Source of the DNA: an uncultured Eubacteriales bacterium
GTDB taxonomy: Bacteria; Bacillota_A; Clostridia; Peptostreptococcales; Anaerovoracaceae
Reading direction: 5' to 3'
Assembly (NCBI GenBank): GCA_902790885.1
Contig: CADATR010000010.1
Location: forward strand, 1-21,090
DNA length: 21,090 nucleotides
Shown here: in pieces, positions 688 to 10,091 of the stretch
How positions within the stretch are numbered: position 1 is the stretch's first letter
How the letters are laid out: the number at the start of each line of letters is the position of its first letter
The notes under the pieces: generated by a model
Database searches by the model: none
What the model was told of the DNA's origin: nothing
The model's input: the letters and a program-made list of their open reading frames with translations, nothing else
Translations under genes and position numbers: made by a program

Positions 688-3480
688 ATGGCTAAAAAAG
701 CTAAACAGCTGAGCCACGACGAGAAGATCTTCAAGCTTACGAAGATCGTCACTGACCGTAAAGAGATCCTCCTTGGACTCGAGAAGCCTTCAAAGGATTC
801 TCCTGAGTACTGGGGATTTGACTGCGGATATCAGTACGTTGTCAGGAGATATGGCAAAGACATCGCGGAGGATTGTCTTGACACCGCTCTTGTTATGGGT
901 AAGCGCAAGCCAAGAACATTCGCTAAGATGAAGGAACTGACCGGATACGATGATGAGCATCTGAAGACAGTTCTTGAAGCACTCGGACAGTACGGACTCG
1001 TGGAGTGGAATAACGAGAACGAGGACGGCAAGAATCCTCAGCACGAGAGACGTTACATTCTCGACCAGTTCGTACCGGGTTCAGCTGAGATCATGGTTAT
1101 GAGAGATCAGATCATGTGCGAAACTCCTGAGATAGCTGACTTCTTCGAGAGAATGACTTATCTGCCTCTTGCCGGCATCACTCAGATGGTAGCACCTGGC
1201 GGTTCCGGAATCGGAATGCACGTCATCCCTGTAGAGAAGGCTATCCCTGCAGAGTGCGAATCGCTCGACATCGAGCACATCTCGTACTGGCTCAAGAAGT
1301 ATGAAGGTCAGATCGGCCTCGGAATCTGCTCCTGCCGTAAGCAGCAGACAGAGAGAGGCGAGGGATCCGGAGACATCATGCAGTACTGGTGCATGGGACT
1401 CGGCGACTTCGCTGACTACTGCAAAGAGACCGGCATGGGCTATGACATCACTTATGAAGAAGCTCTCGAAGTGCTCGAGAAGGCTGAAGAAAAGGGATAT
1501 GTACATCAGGTCACAAACATCGACGGCGCAAACAAGATCTTCGCTATCTGCAACTGCGCTGTAGGTGTCTGCAACGCCCTCCGTACATCACAGCTCTTCA
1601 ACACACCTAACCTGTCTGCTTCGCCGTACCGCTCAGAGGTTGACGCTGAGAAGTGCGTAGCATGCGGCAAGTGCGTTGAGGTCTGCCCTGCAGGCGCTGT
1701 CAGACTCGGACAGAAGCTCTGCACAAAGCACGGCGAGATCGAATATCCTAAGCAGGAGCTCCCTACAAACAATGTATGGCCTGAGGATAAGTGGAACTGG
1801 AACTACAAGAATGAGAACGGCGTCATCCAGACATGGCCTACGGGTACTGCGCCATGCAAGGCTGCATGCCCGCTCCATATAGCTATTCAGGGTTACATCG
1901 ATATGGCTTCGAGAGGCGAGTATCAGGAAGCTCTCAAGCTGATCAAGAGAGATAACCCGTTCCCTGCAGTCTGCGGCGCTATCTGCCATAAGTACTGCGA
2001 GCTCGAGTGCACAAGAGGCACAGTTGACGAGGCTCTGGCTATCGATGACATCAAGGCATTCATCGCAGCCAAGGATCTCGAGGATGAGCACAAGTACATC
2101 CCGCCAATGGTCTCCACAACAAGAGAACCATTTGAACAGAAGATCGGTATCATCGGATCCGGCCCTGCAGGACTGTCCTGCGCATACTTCCTGGCTATCG
2201 AAGGCTACAAGCCTGTAGTATTCGAGAAGCAGGAGATGCCTGGCGGAATGATGACACTCGGAATCCCTAACTTCAGACTCGACAAGAAGGTCGTAAACGC
2301 TGAGATCGAGATCCTCAAGGCTATGGGCGTTGAGATCAGATGCGGAGTTGAAGTTGGTAAGGACGTAACATTCCAGTCGCTGAGAGAAGAAGGCTTCAAG
2401 GGCTTCTTCGTAGGAACAGGACTCCAGTCCTGCGGCAAGCTGGGAATCCCTGGCGATGACGCAGAAGGAGTAATCGGCGGCGTAGATTATGTAAAGAGCG
2501 TAACACTCGGCAAGGCCAAGAAGCTGAGCGGTGATGTAGTAGTCATCGGCGGCGGAAACATCGGAGCTGACGTTGCCCGTACAGCTATCCGTCAGGGAGC
2601 AAAGAGCGTACACCTATACTGCCTCGAGTCCTATGACGAGATGCCTATGGGAGCTGAGGATCAGGAATTCCTCCAGAACGAGGGCATCGTTATCCATGAC
2701 GGATGGGGCCAGACAGAAGTCGTTACAAAGGACGGCAAGGTTGCCGGCATCAAGTTCAGAAAGTGCCTCAGCGTAAAGAACGCAGAAGGCAGATTCGATC
2801 CTAAGTTCGACGACAACGAAACAACAGAGCAGGCCTGCAAGACAATCCTGTTCTCGATCGGCCAGAAGCCTGATTACGGCACACTGTTCGAGGGAACAAA
2901 GGTCGAGCTCAGCCCTCGCGGCATGATCATCGCAGACCCTGTCACACTGCAGACAGCAGAGCCTGACATCTTCGCAGGCGGAGACAGCGTAAGCGGACAG
3001 AAGTTCGTAGTAGACGCTCTGGCAATGGGACGCGAAGGCGCGGTATCACTGCACAGATTCGTCAACAAGGGCCAGCACCTGATGATCCACAGAAATACAC
3101 GTCAGTTCACTCCTCTCAACAAGGAAGACGTTGTTATTCCTGCAGCTGACTTCAGAAAGCCTCCTCGTCAGATCAGAGAGATCGATGAGGCAAAGAAGCT
3201 CACAATGGATTATGAGATCAAGCAGTTCAGCGAAGAGCAGATCAAGAAGGAAGCAGAGAGATGTCTCAAGTGCGGACGCAGCGTAGTTGACACCAACAAG
3301 TGCATCGGCTGCGGAATGTGCACAGTACAGTGCAAGTTCGACGCTATCCACCTCTTCCGTCTGCCTGATGGAGACAAGTACTCCAACATGATCCCTGCAG
3401 AGAAGAAGTTCCTTGGCATCGGCAAATACATGCCGTCCCGTGTTGCAGGCATCGTAAAGAAGAAAGTAGCTGGCAGATAA
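688..3480 (+). CDS. GltD-like FAD/NAD(P) oxidoreductase fused to iron-sulfur domains
   Basis: A 930-residue cytosolic multidomain redox protein. Residues about 1-300 hold a helical region and a first cysteine set (CSCR at 214-217, C235, C288, C290, C295). A ferredoxin-type motif follows at C323, C326, C329, C333. A GltD-like domain then has its own cysteines (C390, C394, C429, C433, C437, C441), an FAD Rossmann motif GSGPAG at 490-495 and an NAD(P) motif GGGNIG at 621-626. The C-terminus has CxxC at 859/862 and a ferredoxin motif at C872, C875, C878, C882. This resembles the flavin subunit of glutamate synthase and NfnB, so electron transfer between NAD(P)H and a ferredoxin-like partner is likely; the substrate is not evident. 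The start has a purine-rich ribosome site (AGAGGGAAG). A HypA-like gene begins 19 bases downstream. Confidence 0.88.
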   Translation: MAKKAKQLSHDEKIFKLTKIVTDRKEILLGLEKPSKDSPEYWGFDCGYQYVVRRYGKDIAEDCLDTALVMGKRKPRTFAKMKELTGYDDEHLKTVLEALGQYGLVEWNNENEDGKNPQHERRYILDQFVPGSAEIMVMRDQIMCETPEIADFFERMTYLPLAGITQMVAPGGSGIGMHVIPVEKAIPAECESLDIEHISYWLKKYEGQIGLGICSCRKQQTERGEGSGDIMQYWCMGLGDFADYCKETGMGYDITYEEALEVLEKAEEKGYVHQVTNIDGANKIFAICNCAVGVCNALRTSQLFNTPNLSASPYRSEVDAEKCVACGKCVEVCPAGAVRLGQKLCTKHGEIEYPKQELPTNNVWPEDKWNWNYKNENGVIQTWPTGTAPCKAACPLHIAIQGYIDMASRGEYQEALKLIKRDNPFPAVCGAICHKYCELECTRGTVDEALAIDDIKAFIAAKDLEDEHKYIPPMVSTTREPFEQKIGIIGSGPAGLSCAYFLAIEGYKPVVFEKQEMPGGMMTLGIPNFRLDKKVVNAEIEILKAMGVEIRCGVEVGKDVTFQSLREEGFKGFFVGTGLQSCGKLGIPGDDAEGVIGGVDYVKSVTLGKAKKLSGDVVVIGGGNIGADVARTAIRQGAKSVHLYCLESYDEMPMGAEDQEFLQNEGIVIHDGWGQTEVVTKDGKVAGIKFRKCLSVKNAEGRFDPKFDDNETTEQACKTILFSIGQKPDYGTLFEGTKVELSPRGMIIADPVTLQTAEPDIFAGGDSVSGQKFVVDALAMGREGAVSLHRFVNKGQHLMIHRNTRQFTPLNKEDVVIPAADFRKPPRQIREIDEAKKLTMDYEIKQFSEEQIKKEAERCLKCGRSVVDTNKCIGCGMCTVQCKFDAIHLFRLPDGDKYSNMIPAEKKFLGIGKYMPSRVAGIVKKKVAGR

Positions 3481-3499: not shown

Positions 3500-3910
3500 A
3501 TGCACGAATTAGGACTTGTAAATTATGCAGTTAAAGAGGTAAGCAAGATCGCTGAGCAGAACAACGTGTCGCGGATCAAGTCCGTGACACTGGAGTTCGG
3601 CGAGGTCTCGGGCATCGTTACGGACTATCTCTACGATTACTGGAAGTGGTATTCGAAAAAGTTTCCTATGTTTGAGGATTCCACTCTGTATTGCGAGGAG
3701 ATACCGGCCGTAACATGGTGCGACAACTGTAAGATCCAGTATTCTACAGTTGCGTACGGCAAGACCTGCCCTCATTGCGGAAGCGGCCGCACCTGGCTGC
3801 TGCGCGGCAATGAGATGAGGATCAAGTCGATAGAAGTGTATGACTCGGATGACGCGTCATCCGCGGACGGCGGAGATATCGAAGCATCCGGAGAATACAA
3901 ACCTCAGTGA
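3500..3910 (+). CDS. hypA: HypA-like nickel metallochaperone
   Basis: A 136-residue protein beginning MHEL. The N-terminal Met-His-Glu is the nickel-binding signature of HypA/HybF, which delivers nickel to hydrogenase or urease maturation. The zinc site is present as two CxxC motifs, C74/C77 and C90/C93. It is longer than typical HypA (about 113-120 residues) because of an acidic, Ser/Asp-rich tail from about residue 114. No hydrogenase or other hyp gene is visible in the window, so its client is unknown. It is 19 bases after the flavoprotein gene and probably co-transcribed, which makes service to that protein or to a partner an inference worth testing. Confidence 0.85.
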   Translation: MHELGLVNYAVKEVSKIAEQNNVSRIKSVTLEFGEVSGIVTDYLYDYWKWYSKKFPMFEDSTLYCEEIPAVTWCDNCKIQYSTVAYGKTCPHCGSGRTWLLRGNEMRIKSIEVYDSDDASSADGGDIEASGEYKPQ

Positions 3911-3938: not shown

Positions 3939-4139
3939 ATGACCAAAAAGGAAATGCGCGACGTCGTAAAAGCGCTCAACGTCGAGCTGTTCAAGATGAA
4001 CTATAAGGCCGGCGTCCGTCTGCCGAATCTCGAGGCCTTCCTGGCTGGAGATGATGATGCTTTCGCATATGATCCGAAGGCAAAGGACAGACTCGAAAAG
4101 ATGCTCGAGCAGGAAGTCAAGGCCAGCAAGAAGAAATAG
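3939..4139 (+). CDS. Small hypothetical protein, 66 residues
   Basis: A strong AAGGAGG site at 3928-3934 decides the ATG at 3939; the frame is open further upstream, but those codons overlap hypA and have no ribosome site. The product starts MTKKEMRDVVKALNVELF, is charged and probably helical, has no membrane segment or cysteine, and ends in a lysine-rich tail (KASKKK). I do not recognise it. It lies 28 bases after hypA and is likely in the same transcript. A 7-bp inverted repeat (AGCAAGA 4125-4131, TCTTGCT 4140-4146) brackets its stop codon. Confidence 0.7.
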   Translation: MTKKEMRDVVKALNVELFKMNYKAGVRLPNLEAFLAGDDDAFAYDPKAKDRLEKMLEQEVKASKKK

Positions 4140-4169
4140 TCTTGCTCGGTAAGTGAATAGTAATCACAA

Positions 4170-4410
4170 GGGCCGCCGCCTTGCGGCATCCCCTTATGAT
4201 AAGTCCGCAGTCATGTTCGTGGTTGAAAGTCCAGGCCAGATACGGGCAAAGGGACCCACGTAAGCAGCAGGCAGGAGGCCGCTGTGATCATGGCGTATCT
4301 TAGAAGTAAGTCCTCCGCAAAGCGGGTAAAGGCAGGTGTGGGGTCAAAGACCAGGTCGAGTGACTGCGGAAAACATCTTAAAAGGGGCAGCCGGCATTTG
4401 AAGACGGCCT
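4170..4410 (+). ncRNA. Structured pseudoknotted RNA, probable raiA motif
   Basis: This noncoding stretch holds several long-range pairings. An outer helix joins 4185-4195 to 4382-4392 (CCCCTT with AAGGGG, GGC with GCC). A perfect 9-bp helix joins CCGCAGTCA 4205-4213 to TGACTGCGG 4361-4369. Inside, AGATACG 4238-4244 pairs with CGTATCT 4294-4300, and GACCCAC 4253-4259 pairs with GTGGGGTC 4338-4345; these two helices cross, giving a pseudoknot. Local hairpins are CAGC-A-GGC/GCC-GCTG (4265-4284) and CCGC-AAA-GCGG (about 4314-4325). Size, pseudoknot and position shortly upstream of a raiA/hpf homologue fit the raiA motif known from Firmicutes and Actinobacteria. The family name is inferred from context and architecture; the structure itself is directly visible. 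Confidence 0.68.
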
Positions 4411-4452
4411 TACGATGTGCTAATCATTAACAGAAGTCAGGGGGAAAACACA

Positions 4453-4695
4453 ATGGCTATAATGAAAGATCCTACAATGGATATCCCGATGGAAGAACTT
4501 GAAATGATCCTTGCAGGTATTTCCGATGACGGAACGATCAGCAAGGAAGCTGAGAAGGCTCTTCTGGCACGTATAGAAGAGGGAAGATCCAGAGAATATA
4601 TCAACACTATGGGAGAGGTCAAGAGACAGCTCAGATGCAAGCTCGGTCCTGTTGAGGGCAAGAAGCTCTCTGATGCCGTAGATAAGCTCTGGTAA
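4453..4695 (+). CDS. Small hypothetical protein, 80 residues
   Basis: The ATG at 4453 is preceded by AGGGGGAAA and chosen over an in-frame ATG at 4417, which lies in the 3' part of the structured RNA. The product starts MAIMKDPTMDIPMEELEMIL, is acidic in the N-terminal half and basic after residue 45, has one cysteine (in QLRCKLG), no membrane segment, and ends KKLSDAVDKLW. It is probably helical and soluble. I do not recognise it. It is the only gene between the structured RNA and the terminator at 4723-4757, so RNA and protein may share a transcript. Confidence 0.68.
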   Translation: MAIMKDPTMDIPMEELEMILAGISDDGTISKEAEKALLARIEEGRSREYINTMGEVKRQLRCKLGPVEGKKLSDAVDKLW

Positions 4696-4722: not shown

Positions 4723-4757
4723 TGTGTGCTTCTTCACATAAGGAGCACACATTTTTT
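4723..4757 (+). terminator. Intrinsic terminator before hpf
   Basis: An 8-bp stem, TGTGTGCT 4723-4730 with AGCACACA 4744-4751, is followed directly by six T. This is a clean Rho-independent terminator ending the transcript that carries the structured RNA and the 80-residue gene. Confidence 0.88.
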
Positions 4758-4767
4758 GTGTATCTTG

Positions 4768-4776
4768 TGGTACAAT
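4768..4776 (+). promoter_or_regulatory. Extended -10 promoter for hpf
   Basis: TGGTACAAT (TG at 4768-4769, -10 TACAAT at 4771-4776) lies 36 bases before the hpf start and just after the terminator T-run. No good -35 exists at the usual distance, as is common for extended -10 promoters. Confidence 0.6.
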
Positions 4777-4812: not shown

Positions 4813-5346
4813 ATGAAGATCAACATTTCATCAAAAAATTATCCAATGAGCGACAAGCTCAGCGACTACATCGAAAAGAAACTGGCCAAGATAGGCAAAT
4901 ATTTTGACGAGGACACGACTGCGAATATCGTAGTTTCAAAGCTCAGGGATACTCCTAAGTTTGAGGCAACTATCAATGCGAAGCAGGCTGTACTCAGAGC
5001 TGAGATGGCAAATGACAGCATTTATGACGCAGTTGACATGGCCACAGACAAGCTTACAAATCAGATGAGCAAACTCAAGGGAAGGCTTGAGTCAAGATAT
5101 AAGGAAAACAAGGCTCTTAAGCTCGAGTTCATTCCGGAACCGGAAGATGAAGACTTTGAAGAAGAAATGGCTATCGTAAGGAGAAAAGAGGTAGAACTCA
5201 CTCCTATGGTGGCAGAGGAAGCCATCCTTCAGATGGAAATGCTCGGACATGACTTCTTTGTATTCCTCGACATGGATACAGATGATGTCAGCGTGGTATA
5301 CAAGCGCAAGGGCAACGCTTACGGACTGATAGAAACAAAAAGATAG
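4813..5346 (+). CDS. hpf: Long-form ribosome hibernation promoting factor
   Basis: A 177-residue HPF/RaiA/YfiA-family protein. The N-terminal about 100 residues (MKINISSKNYPMSDKLSDYI, then KIGKYFDEDTTANIV) form the beta-alpha ribosome-binding domain that occupies the mRNA/tRNA path of the 30S subunit. After an acidic linker (EPEDEDFEEE) comes the C-terminal dimerisation domain (ELTPMVAEEAILQMEMLGHDFFVFLD), which in long HPF drives 100S ribosome dimers. Length is typical for the long form. The start at 4813 has a strong CAGGAGGA site; an in-frame ATG at 4726 lies inside the upstream terminator and is unlikely. It has its own extended -10 promoter, and the LCP gene follows after 12 bases. Confidence 0.95.
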   Translation: MKINISSKNYPMSDKLSDYIEKKLAKIGKYFDEDTTANIVVSKLRDTPKFEATINAKQAVLRAEMANDSIYDAVDMATDKLTNQMSKLKGRLESRYKENKALKLEFIPEPEDEDFEEEMAIVRRKEVELTPMVAEEAILQMEMLGHDFFVFLDMDTDDVSVVYKRKGNAYGLIETKR

Positions 5347-7780: not shown

Positions 7781-8729
7781 CAGATCCAGAAGAATGATCA
7801 ATATAATACTTTCTCTGATCGTCGCCACGGGAGCCTGGTTCTTTGTTGTGTATAATTACGACCCTATGACGAACGCGAGATATTCCGAAGTGCCTATCAA
7901 ATATACCGGACTCGACACACTTGCTAACCGGGGATATGCGGTGGCAGGCACTAACTATAAACACGTTGAAGTGACGCTTCAGCAGAGAAGGGTGGATACG
8001 ACCAGCATTTCGGCAGATGATATTTCCGTGACAGCGGATGTAAGCGGCCTGTCCACGGGCGAGAATACAGTCGCTCTTCGTGTCACGGGGCCGGAGGGCA
8101 CGCACGTAAGAGACGTTTCCGTCAGGAATGTCAATGTGGAGATCGCGAGTGCCATGACTGTTGAGATGCCGATATCGGTCGAGTACTCAGGTGAACCTGA
8201 AGAAAACGCGGTGCCTCTCGTCGAGAACAAATCGGTAGAAACAGCAACTGTCATCGCTTCAGAGGAAGAGCTTGCCGAGATAGACAGGGTGGCCGCCGTG
8301 ATAGATCCGGAAGACCTTGGCGAGCAGTTCCAGGCAATGACTCTGAAGATCGCGGCTCTCGACAAAGAAGGCAATAGGGTGATGAACGTTGTAATATATC
8401 CGGAGACTGTATCGTTCAGGGCAGCACAGGGATATACCAAGGAGGTAAGGCTGGTAGTACCTGTAAAGGATGATTCGGATGATTCCTATGAGAGGACTTA
8501 TACCGTACCTGAGACGGTTGTCATAAAGGGCAAACAAAGCACCGTCGAGGAGTTTACCGGCATAACCGCGAAGGAGATCAACATAGGCGGCTATTATGAA
8601 GACAGTGAGATACCTGTCGAATTCGATCTGCCTGAGGGCCTGACACTTGCCGACGGGCAGGAGGGTACACTGCTTGTGTCTCTGAAGGTCACCGAAAAGG
8701 AAAAGGACAAGGACAAGGATGATAATTAG
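7773..8729 (+). CDS. cdaR: CdaA regulator, YbbR-domain protein CdaR
   Basis: A 318-residue protein with an N-terminal signal-anchor helix at about 9-27 (IILSLIVATGAWFFVVYN) and an extracytoplasmic part built of repeated beta-rich YbbR modules (for example VPIKYTGLDTLANRGYAVAG, MPISVEYSGEPEENAVPLV, VRLVVPVKDDSDDSY). The tail is highly charged (EKEKDKDKDDN). CdaR binds and modulates CdaA at the membrane. The ATG sits inside the cdaA stop region (ATGACTGA). Its stop shares bases with the stop of the convergent HTH gene: TAG at 8727-8729 and, on the other strand, TAA at 8728-8726. No terminator separates the two. Confidence 0.93.
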   Translation: MTDRSRRMINIILSLIVATGAWFFVVYNYDPMTNARYSEVPIKYTGLDTLANRGYAVAGTNYKHVEVTLQQRRVDTTSISADDISVTADVSGLSTGENTVALRVTGPEGTHVRDVSVRNVNVEIASAMTVEMPISVEYSGEPEENAVPLVENKSVETATVIASEEELAEIDRVAAVIDPEDLGEQFQAMTLKIAALDKEGNRVMNVVIYPETVSFRAAQGYTKEVRLVVPVKDDSDDSYERTYTVPETVVIKGKQSTVEEFTGITAKEINIGGYYEDSEIPVEFDLPEGLTLADGQEGTLLVSLKVTEKEKDKDKDDN

Positions 8730-9445
8730 ATAAGCCGTGATGGATCGCAGCCCAAGGCCCGGGAGAGCGCTATCAGATACTCTGCGCGGGCTTTAGCGAG
8801 ATCCTTCTGACGCTGTTCATATTGCTGGATCGTTCTTAGAGGAACGCCGCTGGCCTTAGCCAGGCCGCTCTGGCTGAGGCCGTTTTTTATGCGCATTTTT
8901 TTGAGAGGCGTATCACGCGATGCGCCGGCGGACACCGGCTCTGCTGTCTCTGAAATAAAGTGTGAGACCGCGTCTTCCGCAAAATGTTCACCGAAGGATC
9001 GTATCTTTGCTGCTCTTTCCGTCTCTGTTATGTCAAGCGGAAGGCTGTCAAGAAATGAGAACCTATCTCTTCCGTATCCTGTTATGAAAGCCTGGGGCTG
9101 GAATGTCCTGACTATCTCCTCGAACGGCAGGCCGCTTTCCCACTGCATCCGGGCCAGTGCGTTACCGCACCAGTACTCCGGGCTCAGACTTTTGGTATAG
9201 CGGGGCTGCGTACGCTCATACGCAATGCCGCTTTTTTCGAGAACTTCATACGCGAGCTCTATGCCCGACATTCCGGCTATAGTCCGGATATCCCCGCGCG
9301 CGAAAAGACCAGCGGTGCCGGAGGCGATAAAGAGTTCGATTATGGCTGAAATGTCATAACGAAGGCTGTGCACCGAATAATCCAGCATGCGGCCGAGCGT
9401 ATCTGCCGCTCTGTCAAGAAAGACCTTATCGTAAGCGATTGTCAT
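8726..9445 (-). CDS. Two-domain HTH regulator, probable antitoxin
   Basis: A 239-residue protein. Residues about 1-120 form a helical domain with a recognisable core, FIASGTAGLFARGDIRTIAG followed by MSGIELAYEVLEKSG, then YWCGNALARMQWESGLPFEE. Residues about 181-239 are an XRE-type helix-turn-helix (LSQSGLAKASGVPLRTIQQY). I recall this domain pair from Clostridia, usually beside DUF3990 genes. The start at 9445 overlaps the DUF3990 gene by 20 bases and has a GGGAGGAG ribosome site, so the two are translationally coupled with the DUF3990 gene first. It likely represses its own promoter and may neutralise the partner; the antitoxin role is inference. Confidence 0.78.
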   Translation of the reverse strand: MTIAYDKVFLDRAADTLGRMLDYSVHSLRYDISAIIELFIASGTAGLFARGDIRTIAGMSGIELAYEVLEKSGIAYERTQPRYTKSLSPEYWCGNALARMQWESGLPFEEIVRTFQPQAFITGYGRDRFSFLDSLPLDITETERAAKIRSFGEHFAEDAVSHFISETAEPVSAGASRDTPLKKMRIKNGLSQSGLAKASGVPLRTIQQYEQRQKDLAKARAEYLIALSRALGCDPSRLI

Positions 9446-10091
9446 ACGGGCGTATCTCCTCCCTGATCATATCGGTTATAAAGAAGTCGCCGCTGCCGGC
9501 AGACGGAGCGATGCTCCTGACTGACCTTATCTCACGGCTTCTGGCTGCGGGATAGGATTCCTCGCCGAAAGCGGGATCATATCCGGTGAAAACTATCCTG
9601 TCGAAGGCGCGGTTGCTCTTCAGCACAAACTGTCTGTTATGATCGTCCGCTGTCAGAGCGCTCCTGAAGCTTTTGTACGAAAGCTTCGCGTCGAGGAAGT
9701 CCTGGGCAAACATGAAGCAGCTGTTGTCCGCGCGGTATCCTATTATGCAGTCACATGCCTGATGATCCACGAAAAAATACTTGCTTATATATTCGCGGGC
9801 CCTGTATGCGCTGTCTGATGAAAGATCGAATTCGCGGTAGTTGAAGAGGAGCCCGAGCCAGTGCAGGGGATCGTATTGCGTGCTGCAGAGATTTATGACG
9901 CGCAGGCCGTCAGTGTCGATGCTGTAGGCGGAGACAAAGCCGTTACTGCCTGAGCGCGCGGCCCACTCGGCTGCATACCGGGCGGACTCAGTGCAATAGA
10001 ATCCCAGACCGAAGTCGTTATATTGTCTGCCAGTGCCGAAGATGGGCTTTCTTACGATTTTTTCGCCTCCGTGGTATATCGTTTTGTTCAT
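9426..10091 (-). CDS. DUF3990-type protein, probable ADP-ribosyltransferase-fold toxin
   Basis: A 221-residue protein with the DUF3990 signature near its start: IYHGG at 5-9, GR at 21-22, DFGLGFYCT at 26-34 and AAEWA at 40-44. A second conserved region, about residues 75-150, includes FFVDHQACDCIIGYRADNSC and the FAQDFL region. To my recollection DUF3990 falls in the ADP-ribosyl fold group; His7 and Tyr32 would sit where the H and Y of such enzymes sit. The last about 50 residues (AARSREIRSVRSIAPSAGSG and onward) are less typical. Neither a signal peptide nor a membrane helix is seen. The gene opens a two-gene minus-strand unit with its own promoter. Toxin activity is inferred from fold and the coupled HTH gene. 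Confidence 0.76.
   Translation of the reverse strand: MNKTIYHGGEKIVRKPIFGTGRQYNDFGLGFYCTESARYAAEWAARSGSNGFVSAYSIDTDGLRVINLCSTQYDPLHWLGLLFNYREFDLSSDSAYRAREYISKYFFVDHQACDCIIGYRADNSCFMFAQDFLDAKLSYKSFRSALTADDHNRQFVLKSNRAFDRIVFTGYDPAFGEESYPAARSREIRSVRSIAPSAGSGDFFITDMIREEIRPYDNRLR

Follow-up and report, generated by a model that had tools for sequence, protein, structure and literature searches.

A raiA (ModT) RNA between co-directional small genes of an apparent operon in rumen Mogibacterium-like bacteria

Introduction

The window examined here, a 21,090-nucleotide stretch of DNA from an uncultured Eubacteriales bacterium, raises the question of how a structured RNA is made, and whether it controls the neighboring hpf gene, when it lies between two small protein genes that precede hpf. 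An initial annotation had described this RNA as a pseudoknotted, raiA-like element that is uncoupled from hpf by a terminator and a separate promoter and had proposed that it acts as a stand-alone RNA. Where its level has been measured, raiA (also named ModT) is among the most abundant RNAs, and its conservation is reported to span over 2,500 species, many non-spore-formers among them (PMC11706538). PMC12286853 and PMC11477304 were also consulted.

Results

A short-form raiA RNA upstream of ORF80

An Rfam covariance-model scan of the whole window, the check for which the initial annotation had called, returned a single match over cut-off, which was to raiA (RF03072) on the forward strand (129 bits against a gathering cut-off of 101.3 bits; E 6.6e-32). 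The RNA is thus a member of the raiA family, which is already known. The matched core lies inside the span of 4185-4392 originally proposed, and the additional length reflects flank pairing that extends helix P1 in this sequence. The features of the locus are collected in Table 1.

Table 1. Features of the raiA locus in the window
Feature	Position	Strand	Basis
First gene of the apparent operon: pyridine nucleotide oxidoreductase (Fe-S/FAD, 930 aa)	688..3480	+	Pfam, NCBIfam
HypA-like nickel chaperone	3500..3910	+	PF01155, 102 bits
ORF66, small protein, adjoins ORF80 in RNA-free relatives	3939..4139	+	185 homologues
5' flank GTGAATAG, arm of P1 extension, common to most embedded loci	4153..4160	+	folds
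Hairpin-forming insertion between P1 extension and P1	4161..4205 (approximate)	+	sequence comparison
raiA (ModT) structured RNA, short ~163-nt form	4206..4368	+	RF03072 match and covariation
Helix P1, 5' strand, outer 8 pairs	4206..4213	+	Rfam structure mapped onto window
P3 stem GCC/GGC, closes the 7-nt loop that forms pk-1	4235..4247	+	comparison with PMC11751092
pk-1 strand a, AGATACG	4238..4244	+	covariation alignment
pk-1 strand b, CGTATCT	4294..4300	+	pairs with strand a
Helix P1, 3' strand	4361..4368	+	Rfam structure mapped; covariation
Insertion 3' of P1, can pair with 4185-4200	4369..4416 (approximate)	+	only in window among 22 loci
3' flank CTAATCA, arm of P1 extension, common to most embedded loci	4420..4426	+	folds
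ORF80, small 80-residue protein	4453..4695	+	135 homologues
Intrinsic terminator (hairpin 4723-4751 and T-run)	4723..4757	+	like terminator behind raiA in L025, L027, L031, L037
Extended -10 of hpf promoter, TGGTACAAT	4768..4776	+	sequence motif
hpf, long-form ribosome hibernation factor, S30AE N and C domains	4813..5346	+	PF02482, PF16321

Structural support was sought in an alignment of 37 RNAs, comprising 23 from other loci and 14 of the 22 that share the gene order of the window (the window included), hereafter termed embedded. The structure tested contains 39 pairs, the two pairs of pk-2 being left out; one of the 39 (columns 52/90) is formed in none of the 37 rows, which lowers the figures slightly. 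Pairing was observed in 95.9% of cells, as compared with 83.2% after shuffling and 27-42% when the partner strand was slid, and 20 of the 39 pairs showed two-sided changes against a shuffled mean of 13.7. Two-sided changes were found in all eight pairs tested at the base of P1, and the three pairs of P3 were invariant across the 37 rows. The seven pairs of pk-1 were formed in 100% of cells, with two-sided changes in three of them, and the crossing pair that they constitute occupies the place of the published pk-1 (PMC11751092). The RNA that had been read from the sequence is thus real, with strong covariation and with the crossing pair present.

In the window RNA, 15 nt correspond to 58 positions of the Rfam model, and long relatives carry a further arm of ∼40 nt there. 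Among the matches listed in an order-wide survey, raiA RNAs fall into two length classes of about 198-245 and 161-178 nt; the form of ∼205 nt has the arm, and the short form that lacks it also occurs in stand-alone relatives. The 210-nt raiA of Clostridium acetobutylicum, for which a cryo-EM structure is described (PMC11751092), shares the mappable core elements P1, P3, and pk-1 with the window RNA but is of the long form. Accordingly, not all eight published helices, P1-P8, are found in the window RNA. Given that P5, P7, and P8 are reported to vary across the family, that P2 is reported to be absent from C. difficile raiA (PMC11706538), and that the Rfam score exceeds the cut-off, the missing helices were not taken as excluding membership. 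The order-wide survey found raiA over cut-off in 230 of 297 genomes, with one match in each positive genome listed.

Gene order around the RNA

Comparison of 80 hpf loci gave 21 in which the order oxidoreductase-hypA-ORF66-[RNA]-ORF80, followed by hpf, is that of the window as far as the contig reaches (one contig, L006, begins in ORF66). The RNA lies elsewhere in the stretch in 35 of the remaining loci, and the script found none in the stretch in 24. Judged by hpf, the window is closest to Mogibacterium-like metagenome genomes from the rumen and gut. Across the 22 embedded loci, P1 begins 23-87 nt behind the ORF66 stop (median 35.5) and ORF80 begins 34-84 nt behind P1 (median 37), and the RNA appears, from its position in these sequences, to sit between co-directional small genes of one operon.

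The existence of the 80-residue gene between the RNA and hpf, which the initial annotation had noted, was confirmed: ORF80 is a real gene as judged by its homologues and by the distribution of differences over the three codon positions (62/35/194). Neither ORF66 nor ORF80 matched a Pfam or NCBIfam family. Both are predicted to form four helices (pLDDT 93 for ORF66 and 87 for ORF80). Profile searches of the PDB gave nothing convincing for either protein, the two matches of ORF66 below 0.01 being stretches of 12-13 residues, and fold searches gave a best Foldseek E of 2.1 for ORF80 and a weak likeness of ORF66 to small helix-turn-helix proteins (best E 0.41). For the oxidoreductase, no model among the 25 listed reached its NCBIfam cut-off, and the HypA-like protein scored 67.5 bits, under the NCBIfam equivalog cut-off of 88.1.

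Elsewhere in the window, at 8726-10091 on the reverse strand, genes for HTH_3 and DUF3990 proteins with frames that overlap by 20 nt lie between ybbR and a glucosamine isomerase gene; this pair looks like a toxin-antitoxin system.

Separation of the RNA from hpf

Both signals that had been placed between the RNA and hpf were found: the terminator pattern and an extended -10-like motif before hpf are each present in 21 of the 22 embedded loci, the exception in both cases being L006. In addition, the RNA and hpf lie on opposite strands in eight of the 35 non-embedded loci in which the script located the RNA, which is then either divergent and upstream of hpf (L044, L045, L047, and L048) or convergent and downstream (L054, L055, L058, and L073). 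Control of hpf in cis by the RNA was rejected on these grounds, the intervening terminator and promoter being recognized as sequence signals, and the initial annotation was right in holding that the RNA is not a simple cis-regulator of hpf.

For the terminator itself, comparison suggests a different history. In L025, L027, L031, and L037, raiA is followed by a terminator, TGTGTGCTTCTT...GCACACA, like that behind ORF80 in the window, and neither ORF80 nor any other gene was seen between the two. An extended -10 precedes the RNA in three of these loci (scores of 10.1 in L025, 8.7 in L031, and 9.0 in L037), the contig of L027 being cut there. Since raiA stands alone before a like terminator in these relatives, the terminator of the window is most likely, from the sequence comparison, an old raiA terminator from which the RNA is now separated by ORF80. 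A terminator is thus present as first described, but its reading as a boundary between the RNA and hpf is not what the comparison suggests.

Promoter and terminator signals of the RNA

Promoter-like sequence was scored 3-24 nt before P1 with a simple home-made SigA score (-10, TGn, and -35; threshold 9), fixed RNA coordinates being used for the 22 embedded loci. None of the 22 reached 9, the maximum being 5.7, and shuffled flanks reach 9 in 0.4% of cases; an own SigA promoter at the edge of P1 was therefore rejected for these loci. By contrast, at least 9 was reached by 27 of the 28 scorable loci in a long-form control, for which the 30 highest-scoring hits of the order-wide survey were taken, two of them being too short to score. 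A T-run after P1 (5 T in 8 within 26 nt) was absent from all 22 embedded loci, and a hairpin terminator of the RNA was absent from all 15 that could be scored by a regular-expression anchor, which missed the other seven. The long-form control gave 22 hairpin terminators and 19 T-runs among its 28 loci (L163 being read on the opposite strand in that count). The RNA of the embedded clade is thus without a recognizable promoter or terminator of its own.

A missing SigA consensus is not a missing promoter, as among the 37 non-embedded relatives for which the script found an anchor, 17 also score below 9 (20 reach it); a promoter, hairpin terminator, or T-run was found in 35 of the 37. The regular-expression anchors missed L040, L043, and L067 among the non-embedded loci, and in the comparison of locus sequences such anchors set the RNA at a wrong position in L007, L016, L019, L027, and L040. 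A stand-alone raiA gene in the embedded clade, driven by a promoter that the score does not recognize (through an alternative sigma factor or from within ORF66) and ended by processing or at 4723-4757, accordingly has to be considered. It would match the published raiA RNAs, which are very abundant and for which an own SigA promoter close upstream is described in four clostridial species (PMC11706538), and the window, L010, and L026 have a TATGAT 5 nt before P1. That hexamer belongs to a hairpin insertion and has no good -35, and ORF66 stop-P1 spacers, which can be as short as 23-28 nt, would then not hold a whole promoter outside ORF66. A promoter within ORF66 was rejected as well: sites over threshold, 214-225 nt upstream and near the ORF66 start, occur in only 4 of the 22 embedded loci, and the window has no site over 9 within the 460 nt scanned upstream. 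The sites in these four loci nevertheless weigh against the absence of a promoter. Taken with the split between embedded and long-form loci, this makes a stand-alone gene rather unlikely, although it retains a better claim than the other alternatives considered below. The own SigA promoter of published raiA is a feature of the gene and not of the RNA family. Of the proposal that this is a stand-alone RNA, the independence from hpf holds; a transcription unit of its own does not follow, no signals for one having been found in a position between co-directional genes. With that position and without signals of its own, a discrete RNA would need to be released by processing.

Two observations concern the ends of raiA in non-embedded relatives. 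In L034, L042, L043, L044, L045, L047, and L048, the extended -10 of raiA seems to lie within the last codons of an upstream gene that we take to be comFC-like. The encoded proteins end in ..SFANGADVVK in L034 and ..SFASGADVIKS in L043; the other five loci were judged by eye from the DNA. Such an overlap might explain why comFC is a frequent upstream neighbor. In L055, L063, L065, and L067, P1 and its extension run directly into a U-run at the end of raiA, and the closing helix may double there as the terminator stem.

RNA-free relatives and origin of the arrangement

ORF66 and ORF80 are adjacent with no raiA between them in seven genomes (G004, G029, G030, G031, G033, G034, and G043), where the gap is 12-105 nt and the same oxidoreductase and hypA lie in front. 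The window RNA thus occupies a junction that these genomes keep closed. A raiA over cut-off is present on another contig in five of them (G004, G029, G030, G031, and G033), and the search of G043 found no raiA. On a quick tree from hpf, LCP, and CdaA, the window groups with L015 and L021, and the embedded state requires one change when five cut-contig rows are left out and two when they are included, the second arising because L018, the contig of which starts 37 nt before hpf, is counted as "other." The embedded rows and L018 are joined by a branch with an SH-aLRT of 92, which is not starred. All 22 embedded loci seem to descend from one event.

The ORF66-ORF80 gap of L144 (G029) contains a hairpin with a left arm, GTCCGCAGTCATG, identical to the 5' end of raiA in the window, and a like hairpin is present in L154 (G043). 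The L144 hairpin may be a remnant of an operon copy since lost, or else a common intergenic palindrome.

The closed junctions bear on whether the RNA has taken on a cis-acting role in the operon, such as that of a leader or insulator for ORF80. In all 22 loci ORF80 begins 34-84 nt downstream of the RNA, and Rfam types the family as "Cis-reg; riboswitch." Seven genomes nevertheless have ORF80 in the same operon without the RNA, the ribosome-binding site of ORF80 lies outside the P1 extension in most folded loci (it is partly paired upstream in L001), and action of raiA in trans is reported for two species, C. difficile and C. acetobutylicum, in which a deletion was complemented from other loci (PMC11706538). 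A cis-acting role within the operon is consequently improbable.

The remaining genome of the seven, G034, has a single raiA match (L189, G034:C89:13700-14400) of 45.8 bits, from which an internal segment around P3 and pk-1 strand a is deleted. This copy keeps promoter-like and terminator-like sequence and reflects either decay or an assembly error. That a related genome has such a raiA, and that embedded copies show no promoter or terminator signal, would suit a reading of the embedded RNA as a decaying relic. Such a reading is very improbable given the conservation of the core: identity to the window RNA is at least 0.920 (mean 0.942; 21 loci), as compared with 0.637 at third codon positions of ORF80 (17 loci), the changes in P1 are two-sided, and the embedded rows also carry the positions that do not vary across the 37-row alignment. 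Moreover, each of the 19 embedded genomes that were searched (L023 and L026 not being among them) has no raiA match other than the embedded copy.

Extension of P1 by the flanks

TGAATAG precedes the RNA in 17 of the 22 embedded loci and CTAATCA follows it in 18, both being present in 16, and the two pair in folds. The 208-nt span 4185-4392 of the window folds with a z-score of -4.14 (0 of 200 shuffles as low), P1 being lengthened by pairing within 4185-4200 and 4375-4392. This span is the inner part of one long stem over 4140-4452 (z -3.25; 1 of 100 shuffles as low), which fills the space between the ORF66 stop and the ORF80 start and which the two insertions of the window lengthen. Immediately before P1, 3 of the 22 loci, namely the window (4161-4205), L010, and L026, carry a small palindromic insertion (..AAGGG...CCCCTTATGAT).

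With the three loci that carry insertions left out, flank pairing outward of P1 had a mean of -11.6 kcal/mol in the remaining 19, as compared with -6.0 kcal/mol for shuffled flanks, and folds of individual loci gave z-scores of -0.2 to -3.3 (17 loci). When 3' flanks were swapped between loci the mean was -10.1 kcal/mol, and only L022 of three divergent loci clearly preferred its own flank. The small effect of swapping implies that the flank pairing reflects mostly shared ancestry, and covariation of the flanks was set aside as weak proof of a processing stem. The P1 extension is also not special to the operon form, since the stand-alone relatives L024 and L025 extend P1 as well (-17.6 and -12.1 kcal/mol, respectively).

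Discussion

The window RNA resembles published raiA/ModT (RF03072) in sequence, in P1, P3, pk-1, and the conserved core, in its single match per genome searched, and in its frequent place near hpf in relatives. It differs in that it lies within an apparent operon and that neither a promoter nor a terminator of its own was found. A core that is conserved, action in trans as reported for other species, and the apparent lack of an own unit together suggest that the RNA is produced as part of the operon mRNA and then released from it. On balance we think it probable that a functional, trans-acting raiA RNA was captured once by the operon, is transcribed in its mRNA, and is now excised.

The sequence of events under this capture and excision would be as follows. 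A raiA RNA would have entered the oxidoreductase-hypA-ORF66-ORF80 operon once, in a rumen Mogibacterium-like clade, and would have lost its own promoter and terminator. It would then be transcribed inside a polycistronic mRNA that ends at 4723-4757 and would fold within that mRNA, with P1, lengthened by complementary flanks, perhaps serving as a processing stem of the kind found in rRNA. Stems of precursor rRNA are cut by RNase III. The likeness is one of working principle, a structured RNA between complementary flanks in a longer transcript, and not of homology. An endonuclease, with RNase III as the first candidate, would free the mature RNA, and release would leave ORF80 with its own ribosome-binding site; an RNase III family match is present in all 22 genomes searched, 19 of them embedded. 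More tentatively, a large, housekeeping-like RNA that normally has its own transcription may here have become internal to an mRNA and be released by the P1/flank stem, such that its supply would be tied to expression of the redox/HypA operon.

A literature search, which did not take in the principal synteny study (Soares et al. 2024), turned up no report of an operon-internal raiA. The arrangement provisionally looks new.

The initial annotation had also suggested looking for a rise in expression in stationary phase or sporulation. In the species tested, published levels instead fall after entry into stationary phase (PMC11706538). With respect to sporulation, 58 genomes were searched, most of them metagenome genomes that may be incomplete. 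Spo0A_C proved a poor marker, since it matched 47 of the 58, mostly far more weakly than in SpoIVA-positive genomes, and SpoIVA was used instead. A SpoIVA match was present in 7 of the 58, one of them without raiA. With raiA over cut-off in 52 genomes (8 of 8 in one set and 44 of 50 in another), 46 raiA-positive genomes gave no SpoIVA match; GGDEF was over cut-off in 34 of the 58. Three isolates, M. kristiansenii, A. massiliense, and S5-A14a (G005, G006, and G007), have raiA and gave no match to SpoIVA or GGDEF, which makes it unlikely that sporulation or GGDEF-made c-di-GMP is the only role of raiA.

A clade that has seemingly lost the promoter and terminator of raiA while retaining the core would reveal what the locus can do without. 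An embedded raiA would argue again for a function in trans and would tie the supply of the RNA to a named operon, and the embedded clade would offer a natural construct for finding the enzymes that process raiA.
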